Below, one piece after another: positions 10,247 through 57,389 of a stretch of 64,000 nt of DNA. Below the pieces are notes generated by a model. That model was given only the letters and a program-made list of their open reading frames with translations. It made no database searches and had not been told where the DNA came from. The stretch's first letter is position 1; the number at the start of each line of letters is the position of its first letter. The DNA comes from Bacteroidota bacterium (GTDB lineage Bacteria; Bacteroidota; Bacteroidia; JAHEXY01), in assembly GCA_023251875.1 (NCBI GenBank), contig JAHEXY010000001.1:186001-250000 (forward strand). The letters are read 5' to 3'. Made by a program: the position numbers and the translations under genes.

Positions 10247-10308
10247 ACCGCTACGCGGTATATTTTATTGTGGCATATTTTTCTACAATAATGAATGCCC
10301 TACGGGCA
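10247..10308. repeat. REP pair left of the transposase gene (direct orientation)
   Basis: Two 13-mer palindromes: ACCGCTACGCGGT (10247-10259; type A, preceded by GTTTA) and TGCCCTACGGGCA (10296-10308; type B). Both have a 5-bp stem and a TAC loop. TTCTACAA (10281-10288) lies exactly seven bases before the type B palindrome. The same arrangement is repeated in direct orientation after the transposase gene (10906-10972). Confidence 0.92.
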
Positions 10309-10350
10309 AGGTTAAAATGAAGATATTCCCCATGGTGATCATGAAGCTAT

Positions 10351-10414
10351 ACACCGTAGGTGTATAATTATTGTAGAAATAATAAATTATAAGACAAACT
10401 TACCGCGTAGCGGT
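10351..10414. repeat. REP pair left of the transposase gene (inverted orientation)
   Basis: ACACCGTAGGTGT (10351-10363, type B) is followed after seven bases by TTGTAGAA (10371-10378), the complement of TTCTACAA, and then by ACCGCGTAGCGGT (10402-10414, type A). This is the mirror image of the pair at 10247-10308, so the two pairs form one large bipartite element. The transposase start codon follows 19 bases after the last palindrome. Confidence 0.92.
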
Positions 10415-10432
10415 TTAAGAATAGAAAGAAAT

Positions 10433-10897
10433 ATGAAACCCGGCACATTCACACAATTATATACCCATCTTGTATTTGCGGTAAAATATCGTGAATCTCT
10501 TTTACATAAAAATATTCGCCCGGATGTTTTTAAATATATGAGCGGAATTTTAACGAACATGAAACACAAATCCATTATTATAAATGGAATGCCAGATCAT
10601 GTGCATATTTTATATGGCATGAATCCAAATGTTTCGGTTTCTGATACCGTACATGATATAAAACGAAGTTCTTCTTTGTGGATAAAAGATAAAAAAATAT
10701 TTAAAGGCGCATTTGCTTGGCAAGAAGGTTATGGTTCATTTTCGTATAGCCGTTCGCAACTAAATAATATTTACAAATATATTGAAGACCAAGAGCAACA
10801 TCACAAAGCAAAAACGTTTAAAGAAGAATATATGGAGATTCTCAAAAAGTTTGAGGTAGAATATGAAGAAAAATATTTGTTTGAATTTTTTGAATGA
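10433..10897 (+). CDS. REP-associated tyrosine transposase (Y1, IS200-like)
   Basis: A 154-residue HUH single-strand nuclease of the Y1 transposase family. The HUH motif is His56-Val-His58 (GMPDHVHIL). The catalytic tyrosine lies in NNIYKYIEDQEQHH, probably Tyr116, with the family segment WQEGYGSFSYSRSQLNNI ahead of it. A single copy flanked on both sides by REP palindromes and without IS200 ends or a tnpB partner fits a RAYT, a domesticated transposase that acts on REP elements in trans. The start was chosen at MKPGTFTQLYTHLVFAV, the usual N-terminus. All key residues are present, so it is probably active. The RAYT label rather than plain IS200 comes from context. Confidence 0.93.
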   Translation: MKPGTFTQLYTHLVFAVKYRESLLHKNIRPDVFKYMSGILTNMKHKSIIINGMPDHVHILYGMNPNVSVSDTVHDIKRSSSLWIKDKKIFKGAFAWQEGYGSFSYSRSQLNNIYKYIEDQEQHHKAKTFKEEYMEILKKFEVEYEEKYLFEFFE

Positions 10898-10905
10898 AAT
10901 GTTTA

Positions 10906-10972
10906 ACCGCTACGCGGTATAAATAATTTGTGGGCTTAATGTTTTTCTACAATAATAAATGCCCTACGGGCA
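10906..10972. repeat. REP pair right of the transposase gene
   Basis: ACCGCTACGCGGT (10906-10918) and TGCCCTACGGGCA (10960-10972), with TTCTACAA at 10945-10952, seven bases before the second palindrome. With its flank (AATGTTTA before, CAA after) this is a near-exact direct copy of the pair at 10247-10308. The transposase gene is therefore bracketed by direct repeats of about 70 bases. Confidence 0.92.
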
Positions 10973-11050: not shown

Positions 11051-11674
11051 ATGGCAGATTGGTTTAGACGGAAAACTTGGACAGAAAATGACGAAAAAGA
11101 ATTTTTAGCAAAACTTGGACGCGCAAGAAAAGGCAAGAGCGAACAGTATTTGAAAATTCAAGCAATGGAACTTGTTGAAACTAAAGATAAAAAATTGTTG
11201 CTAGTCGCAGAGTCGTTGTTAAACAAATTACTTGTGGAATATCCTGATGACAAATTCAATAGGAGTTCTGCATTACAAACACTAGGACATATTTATAAGC
11301 TATTTGATGACTTTGAAAAAGCGATTGATTATTACAAACAGTCGATTGAATTTGAAACAAATTATCCAAACATAAGAACTAATTCATATTTGGACTTTTC
11401 AGAATTGATAATAAAAACAAAAAAGAATAAACAGTATGACTACGTTGAAAGTATTTTACTTAAAGAGTTACCCGAACAAATATTCCCAATTCTAAAATAT
11501 AAGACCTATTCTATTCTGTCAATTATTAGCATCTATAAGAACAACGAAGAACAGGCAAGATATTTTGCAGATTTGGCAAACAAATATGCCAACGAGAAGA
11601 CATCGGGACTTCGATATCATAAATATTTAGGTGTAGTAAAGGAAAGGGGCAATTGGTTAGACAAACTTGGATGA
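11051..11674 (+). CDS. Tetratricopeptide-repeat-like protein, function unknown
   Basis: A 207-residue soluble protein starting MADWFRRKTWTENDEKEFLAKLGRARK. Residues about 60-110 contain a TPR-like helical pair (ALQTLGHIYKLFDDFEKAIDYYKQSIEFE), with further helices to the C-terminus (AEKAR-type pattern ARYFADLANKYA). TPRs bind other proteins; the partner is unknown. There is no signal peptide or membrane segment. It stands between two REP clusters, an insertion-prone intergenic zone. I recognise the N-terminal pattern as a recurring hypothetical protein but know no function. Confidence 0.75.
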   Translation: MADWFRRKTWTENDEKEFLAKLGRARKGKSEQYLKIQAMELVETKDKKLLLVAESLLNKLLVEYPDDKFNRSSALQTLGHIYKLFDDFEKAIDYYKQSIEFETNYPNIRTNSYLDFSELIIKTKKNKQYDYVESILLKELPEQIFPILKYKTYSILSIISIYKNNEEQARYFADLANKYANEKTSGLRYHKYLGVVKERGNWLDKLG

Positions 11675-11705: not shown

Positions 11706-11821
11706 ACACCGAAGGTGTGTAATTGTTGTAGAAATAATTAATCGTAGGATAAATTTACCGCGTAGCGGTTCTATTATTGTAGAAAATAAATTATCTAAAA
11801 CAAACGATACCGCGTAGCGGT
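11706..11821. repeat. REP cluster with three palindromes
   Basis: ACACCGAAGGTGT (11706-11718), ACCGCGTAGCGGT (11757-11769) and a second ACCGCGTAGCGGT (11809-11821). TTGTAGAA follows the first two palindromes after exactly seven bases (11726-11733 and 11777-11784). The loop of the first is GAA instead of GTA, and its stem is intact. The cluster ends 23 bases before the next gene. Confidence 0.9.
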
Positions 11822-20405: not shown

Positions 20406-20489
20406 GGCTTTCTAAAAATTGTATTTTTTATTTCCTCTCCCTTTATCCCTCTCAAAGAGAGGGACTCAAATTGTAATTTTTAGAAAGCC
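20406..20489. repeat. CTCTCC palindromic repeat in the apex of a 15-bp inverted repeat
   Basis: Outer arms GGCTTTCTAAAAATT (20406-20420) and AATTTTTAGAAAGCC (20475-20489) are perfect complements. Between them lies a CTCTCCC/AGAGAGGG element (CCTCTCCCTTTATCCCTCTCAA..). The element is bracketed by imperfect direct repeats, AAATTGTATTTTTTA (20416-20430) and AAATTGTAATTTTTA (20468-20482), which match at 14 of 15 positions. Without the element and one repeat the site would be a plain 15-bp hairpin with a GT loop. Confidence 0.8.
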
Positions 20490-38172: not shown

Positions 38173-38312
38173 AACCGCTACGCGGTATGAATGTATTTGA
38201 TAAAGACTTTCTACAATACTTTAACGCCTATGGCGTATTTTTAAATGATTGACCGTAGGTCATATATTATTGTAGGGGAAATAAATAATCTATATTAATA
38301 CCTCGTAGAGGT
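38173..38312. repeat. REP cluster with four different palindromes
   Basis: ACCGCTACGCGGT (38173-38185), ACGCCTATGGCGT (38224-38236), TGACCGTAGGTCA (38250-38262) and ACCTCGTAGAGGT (38300-38312). TTCTACAA (38208-38215) lies eight bases before the second, and TTGTAG (38270-38275) lies seven bases after the third. It is a full bipartite element like that at 10.2 kb but with different inner stems and no transposase gene, consistent with mobilisation in trans. Confidence 0.92.
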
Positions 38313-53398: not shown

Positions 53399-53426
53399 TT
53401 CTACAAATATTGTTAGCCTAAAGGCT
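53399..53426. repeat. Diverged REP unit (TTCTACAA box plus AGCC/GGCT palindrome)
   Basis: TTCTACAA (53399-53406) is followed after eight bases by AGCC-TAAA-GGCT (53415-53426). This matches the box-palindrome spacing of the type B REPs at 10.3, 10.9 and 38.2 kb, with a different stem and loop. Confidence 0.6.
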
Positions 53427-53653
53427 CAATTACCACGAAGATTAAGATGCTGCTTAAAGTTAATAAAGTAATGCGTTTACAATTTATGGTAAATGTATTT
53501 ATGAAATAGAATAGTAAAAATCAGTTTGATCATTGGATATTTTCTTTGTAAAAACCGTATCTTTATTTAAATATTTAATACCATGAGCGATATTTCAATA
53601 AAGATTGCTTCAATCGTTCGCAATGGGTCTTTCAAGACAACCTCTTTCATTTT

Positions 53654-57349: not shown

Positions 57350-57389
57350 AACCTCTCCCTAGCCTCTCCAAAGGAGAGGGAAGGATAAG
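57350..57389. repeat. CTCTCC palindromic repeat directly after clpC
   Basis: CCTCTCC-AAA-GGAGAGG (57363-57379) is preceded by AACCTCTCCCTAG. The element is flanked by the perfect 9-bp direct repeats GAAGAATAA (57341-57349, which contains the clpC stop TAA, and 57390-57398). This arrangement resembles an insertion with target duplication at the clpC stop. Confidence 0.75.

Follow-up and report, generated by a model that had tools for sequence, protein, structure and literature searches.

A probable REPtron-like module in a Bacteroidota genome: composite two-hairpin repeats with a 3' tag beside a subclass 1.2 Y1 transposase

Next to most homologues of one HUH/Y1 transposase across the Bacteroidota lies nearly the same small repeat unit, composed of two short hairpins and a tag that lies a constant distance 3' of the first. 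The case analysed here is located in a 64,000-nucleotide stretch of a Bacteroidota genome (the window), which we interpret, with a probability of roughly 0.7, as a REPtron-like module in which a single-copy TnpA of subclass 1.2 is flanked by these composite repeats and probably mobilises them in trans. In the classification of Quentin et al. (2018), subclass 1.2 is a Cyanobacteria/Bacteroidetes group of low, divergent copy number for which no REP is listed (PMC6006769), so that the role of its TnpA proteins had been open. The window protein fits this subclass and the published absence of REPs is contradicted by the loci described below. The initial annotation had considered the palindromes REP-like and tied to the Y1 transposase, which is borne out here, but had taken them for a local oddity of known REPs; they represent instead a Bacteroidota-wide layout of another transposase subclass, with a Y---Q--HH motif. 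A description of such repeats was not found in the open-access literature, the scope that was searched.

The ORF at the centre of the module is recognised as a Y1 transposase by Pfam, and its nearest solved structures in the PDB are the TnpA proteins of ISDra2 and ISHp608. It possesses the DH[IV]H, WQ and Y---Q--HH motifs, the size (about 148 aa in the subclass) and the conserved C-terminal tail that define subclass 1.2. The Y---NP motif of class 2 (TnpA-REP / RAYT) is absent, the corresponding residues being Y116-I-E-D-Q-E-Q-H-H. The gene, its hairpins and boxes, and the related copies elsewhere in the window are listed in Table 1.

Table 1. Transposase gene, hairpins and boxes of the window (CM, covariance model)
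Feature	Position	Strand	Evidence
Hairpin A, first half unit (ACCGC loop GCGGT), outer flank TTTAA	10247..10259	-	sequence; CM match G000:C11:196242-196309 minus
Box TTGTAGAA, + strand reading TTCTACAA	10281..10288	-	sequence
Hairpin B, TGCCC stem	10296..10308	-	sequence + CM
Hairpin B, second half unit (ACACC GTA GGTGT; stem extends to 10348-10366)	10351..10363	+	sequence + CM match 196350-196419
Box TTGTAGAA, 7 bases past 5-bp stem	10371..10378	+	sequence
Hairpin A, flank TTTAA	10402..10414	+	sequence
TnpA-Y1, 154 aa, subclass 1.2 (DHVH, WQ, YIEDQEQHH), residue 107 = Arg	10433..10897	+	Pfam Y1_Tnp E 4e-28; PDB ISDra2/ISHp608 TnpA; PMC6006769 motif
Hairpin A, downstream of TnpA-Y1 gene	10906..10918	-	sequence + CM
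Box	10945..10952	-	sequence
Hairpin B	10960..10972	-	sequence + CM
Hairpin B, loop GAA	11706..11718	+	sequence + CM match 197705-197774
Box	11726..11733	+	sequence
ACCGC hairpin, A of one unit and B of the next, own box after it	11757..11769	+	sequence + CM
Box	11777..11784	+	sequence
Hairpin A, flank TTTAA	11809..11821	+	sequence
Complete dispersed A-B-B-A element	38174..38312	.	sequence + CM; folds as single-stranded DNA, z = -5.4
Parts of this element: A 38174-38186, box 38209-38216, B 38224-38236, B 38250-38262, box variant TTGTAGGG 38270-38277, A 38300-38312			
Single B-type unit of another family (box 53399-53406, hairpin AGCC TTTA GGCT, TAG at +10)	53399..53427	-	sequence

Each unit consists of hairpin B, seven bases, the box TTGTAGAA, some 22-23 bases and hairpin A; on the active strand it reads 5'-[hairpin B, 5-bp GC-rich stem, 3-4 base loop]-NNNATNNNN-(A/G)TAG-AA-[~22-23 bases]-[hairpin A]-NNNAT-3'. 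Every palindrome named in the initial annotation is present in the window sequence. The separation of box and palindrome by "seven or eight bases" is indeed a fixed distance, but with a 5-bp stem it is always seven: exactly 7 bases intervene between stem and box at 10296, 10351, 10960, 11706, 11757, 38224 and 38250, which places the TAG of TTGTAGAA at +10, and the distance is also 7 at 53415, where the loop has four bases and the outer pair is mismatched. A TTGTAGAA-type box in all eight cases, as had been claimed, does not hold, the copy at 38250 being TTGTAGGG. Among the 17 TTGTAGAA/TTCTACAA boxes in the window, a perfect 5-bp hairpin stands at the 7-base offset in six, with a chance expectation that we estimate at far below one (about 31 such hairpins are listed in the 64 kb). 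Three TTGTAGAA strings (27255, 27768 and 28116) lie in similar, apparently coding repeats devoid of hairpins and are chance occurrences of the box. The window also holds longer perfect palindromes of another kind with an AAA loop (20446-20464 and 57363-57379; TCCCTCTC..., CCTCTCC AAA GGAGAGG), and a similar string, CCTCCAAAGGAGAGG, was seen in the flank of one homologous locus (L306). An ORF encoding TPR repeats (11051-11674) is situated between two facing half units (10972 / 11706), as though this ORF had been inserted or captured within a single element, separating its halves.

The repeats are dispersed through the 4.8-Mb genome as well as flanking the gene. A covariance model of the half unit gave 53 matches at E<0.05 and, as these are mostly inverted neighbours, they amount to about 20 full elements, in which two inverted units form a REPIN-like structure. 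Most copies have the order A, box, B, central spacer (typically 11-13 bases), B, box, A, measure about 150 bp and have TTAA-like outer flanks; the type A hairpins at their outer ends carry no box. Two patterns were searched genome-wide, TTGTAGAA-N15-34-ACCGCGTAGCGGT (15 matches) and TTCTACAA-WA-N4-ATGCCCTAYGGGCA with at most 3 mismatches (20 matches), both with 0 matches in the reversed controls. That stems change while pairing is kept, another earlier claim, was confirmed: double changes occur in 7 of 10 stem pairs, 99.6% of cells are paired, a value reached in 0 of 500 shuffles, and stem covariation amounts to 0.522 vs 0.119 in shuffles. The variety is partly positional, however, and does not reflect four drifting copies of one stem, since in most elements each hairpin position has its own stem (in order ACCTC, TGCCC, ACGCC and ACCGC). 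The TTAA outer ends were considered as a target-site duplication and rejected because left and right ends differ by type (TTAA vs TAAA) and do not match within an element.

Within the same genome, the sole representative of its genus, family and order among the genomes compared, six TnpA relatives share 29-53% identity over full-length matches and near-identical copies of the gene are absent. One paralogue (L002) has the same layout with other stems, the loop GAA and the box TTATAG; its repeat family is the exception to dispersal, being confined to its own locus. A second (L004; G000:C22:252340-252783) shows a variant geometry with hairpins farther apart and a shifted box (TTGTAA). The gene of a third (L005; G000:C5:315926-316372) is broken by two stops, and about six hairpins with longer stems (6-8 bp) flank it to either side, a related but altered and more complex version of the element. 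At the loci of two others (L003 and L006), no comparable cluster of paired hairpins was seen.

Beyond this genome, TnpA relatives are encoded at 80 loci from Bacteroidota and Ignavibacteria (one labelled Anaerolineales). Hairpin density is 6.94/kb within 350 bp of 83 homologous genes vs 0.62/kb at 1.4-2.8 kb, and the orientation of the units is mirrored between the two sides of the transposase gene. TAG stands at +10 in 186 of 453 hairpins, vs 2-15 at each of the other offsets up to +27; in a second, independent set of 110 loci from genomes of the same class it does so in 202 of 619, vs 1-22 at other offsets up to +23, 30 of these loci being without a B unit as we defined it. The gap from B to A peaks at 36-40 bases (327 pairs). 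Loops and stems vary between lineages, the consensus being A-[RYCCC]-GAA/GTA/GTTA-[GGGRY]-GAAATNWTT-(A/G)TAG-AAA. At the 5' foot of the hairpin there is no conserved tetranucleotide, only a bias towards A, mainly at -1; RTAG is found at +9 to +12. Two loci (L026 and L028) have similar spacers and share about 16 bases beyond hairpin A (TTCAAGTAGAAAAGAA), probably by a recent duplication. In one genus (g77; L293, L294 and L300), the REP elements are nested in a larger inverted-repeat element with the ends GGCTACCGTGTACCC.

The repeats are linked to the enzyme in several ways. Loop and box types follow the TnpA tree, the box base requiring 12 changes vs at least 37 in shuffles. In one genus with 61 genomes, the motif is present in 26 of the 37 genomes with the transposase and in 2 of the 24 without (Fisher 1.4e-6), and the more similar a genome's enzyme is to the cognate one, the more copies of the motif are present (Spearman 0.42, p 0.011). 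The purine of the tag is moreover associated with residue 107 of the protein: box A goes with His107 in 36 of 42 cases and box G with Lys/Arg107 in 28 of 31 in the first set, while in the second set box A goes with His107 in 21 of 39 and with Lys/Arg107 in 3 of 39, and box G with Lys/Arg107 in 27 of 33. On phylogenetically independent pairs, residue 107 ranks first among 393 column tests (3.4 in the same direction, 0.0 opposite), with a sign test that taken alone is not significant (p 0.125) on only 6 supported independent pairs. The residue lies 11 positions after the conserved Trp of Trp96-Gln97; in E. coli TnpA-REP, GTAG is contacted by residues between that Trp (W94) and R104, 10 past it and both included (PMC6006769). 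As TnpA-REP is not among the matches of a PDB search with the window protein, this placement rests on the shared W-Q/E motif, by which the two proteins were aligned, together with the residues quoted in the same paper.

These associations bear on the proposal of the initial annotation that the box is a guide sequence read by the HUH protein. Reading by the protein receives indirect support, since across 133 homologues the purine of the box varies with residue 107. A guide in the sense of IS608 would base-pair with a cleavage site, and a pairing partner of the box inside the unit was looked for and not found: no other position of the half unit switches between T and C with box A and G, which speaks against a fixed pairing partner there. 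This favours a protein-read tag over guide pairing with a fixed site in the unit.

We propose a scheme in which hairpin B would fold out for TnpA when the DNA is single-stranded, e.g. on the lagging strand. A TnpA dimer would bind hairpin B and, at the near-constant spacing, probably hairpin A too, and would read the loop and, nine bases 3' of the stem, the (A/G)TAG tag, the latter by means of the segment following Trp96-Gln97, including residue 107. By nicking and joining single-stranded DNA, the enzyme might then copy or move units in trans. Counting against this reading are the 30 second-set loci without a B unit, the aberrant layouts or missing hairpin clusters at paralogous loci, the confinement of the L002 family and the non-significant sign test for residue 107. 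No precise empty site was found either: in another genus, an element of genome G337 is missing from G413, whose flank is 96% identical, yet the intergenic spacer differs along its entire length.

Alternatively, the box could be a cleavage site instead of a tag, TnpA cutting about ten bases 3' of hairpin B as it does in IS608 3' of the right-end hairpin. In IS608, the right cleavage site is located on the 3' side of the hairpin, and the box likewise occupies a fixed distance on that side. The IS608 cleavage sites are TCAA and TTAC (PMC5934647), and the complement strand of the box contains CT (TTCTAC), the dinucleotide at which TnpA-REP cuts (PMC8266576). Against this stand the type A hairpins, which form the outer ends in the window's genome and have no box, and the manner of recognition: cleavage sites in IS608 are recognised through DNA pairing, whereas the base of the box here varies with a protein residue and with no other position of the unit. 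We consider a cleavage site unlikely, while giving it more weight than any other alternative.

Lower in probability is an origin from an ordinary IS200-like insertion sequence, of which the repeats would be the termini and the derivatives without a gene (MITEs); the element would be [B box A] gene [A box B], the dispersed copies having lost the gene. It is in line with the IS200/IS605 transposases being the closest solved relatives and with genus g77, in whose dispersed elements B is the outer and A the inner hairpin, as around the gene and contrary to the window's genome. Conversely, most dispersed elements of the window's genome have A outside and B inside, the divergence of its TnpA relatives leaves no near-identical gene copies, and the flanking hairpins are mutually inverted, unlike IS608 ends, where a guide lies 5' of every hairpin on the same strand (PMC5934647), all of which makes this origin improbable.

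Conservation of the box merely through box-box pairing, by which an inverted pair would fold into one long hairpin with no reading by a protein, seems quite improbable. As single-stranded DNA the element at 38.2 kb does fold far better than shuffles, with box paired to box, but both sets show a single offset for TAG, near many single or unpaired half units around genes, and pairing alone would not keep TAG throughout the phylum while positions +7 to +9 vary. That the palindromes act as RNA (terminators or mRNA-stabilising hairpins) and the transposase link is hitch-hiking, which short GC-rich hairpins in intergenic, AT-rich DNA might suggest, is very improbable in view of the eleven times higher hairpin density beside the TnpA gene family, the mirrored unit orientation, the dependence of the motif on presence of the gene and the change of the box with the transposase.

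Beyond the single module, the data may point to a phylum-wide class of HUH systems with mirror-image reading of single-stranded DNA, in which a hairpin is followed at a fixed distance by a protein-read 3' tag, with a second hairpin as partner site, and in which enzyme and repeat co-evolve with one residue setting the tag base; we put this forward tentatively, at slightly less than even odds. A tagged REP class beside most members examined provides a candidate substrate for subclass 1.2 TnpA, whose enzymes apparently spread small repeats in many Bacteroidota. With it, co-evolution of REPs and transposases reaches into a class 1 (IS200-like) lineage, and many palindromes left unannotated between the genes of Bacteroidota are explained. 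The natural variation in loop, tag base and residue 107 moreover offers ready-made swaps for studying how such enzymes read folded single-stranded DNA.

Compared with known systems, the protein resembles TnpA-Y1 subclass 1.2 (PMC6006769) in its DHVH, WQ and Y---Q--HH motifs, size, host phylum and low divergent copy number, and differs from that subclass as published (no REP, PMC6006769) by the REP-like units flanking most members examined. With the TnpA-REP / RAYT systems (class 2; E. coli, Pseudomonas, Stenotrophomonas) it has in common a single-copy, divergent HUH/Y1 gene flanked by short palindromes and, with their REPs and REPINs, dispersed inverted pairs, short loops and a (G/A)TAG tag. 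In contrast to these, the tag stands 3' of the hairpin at a fixed nine bases and not at its 5' foot, the units are two-hairpin composites with a period of about 50 nt, and the protein is class 1 (Y---Q--HH); the module is not assigned to the REP/RAYT family because it lacks both the GT[AG]G at the 5' foot and the Y---NP motif. The IS200/IS605 family (IS608, ISDra2) comprises the closest solved protein relatives and likewise combines an HUH/Y1 transposase with hairpins as recognition elements, IS608 also having a second hairpin, downstream of its left-end palindrome. Here, however, a guide tetranucleotide 5' of each hairpin is not conserved, a layout that sets the units apart from IS608 and known REPs alike; the ends are inverted instead of lying on the same strand, and near-identical gene copies are absent from the window's genome. 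The group 3 REPtron Mb of Marinomonas (PMC8266576) shares a perfect 5-bp stem and a GTAG set off from the stem by a gap, which in Mb is 2 bases long and on the 5' side.
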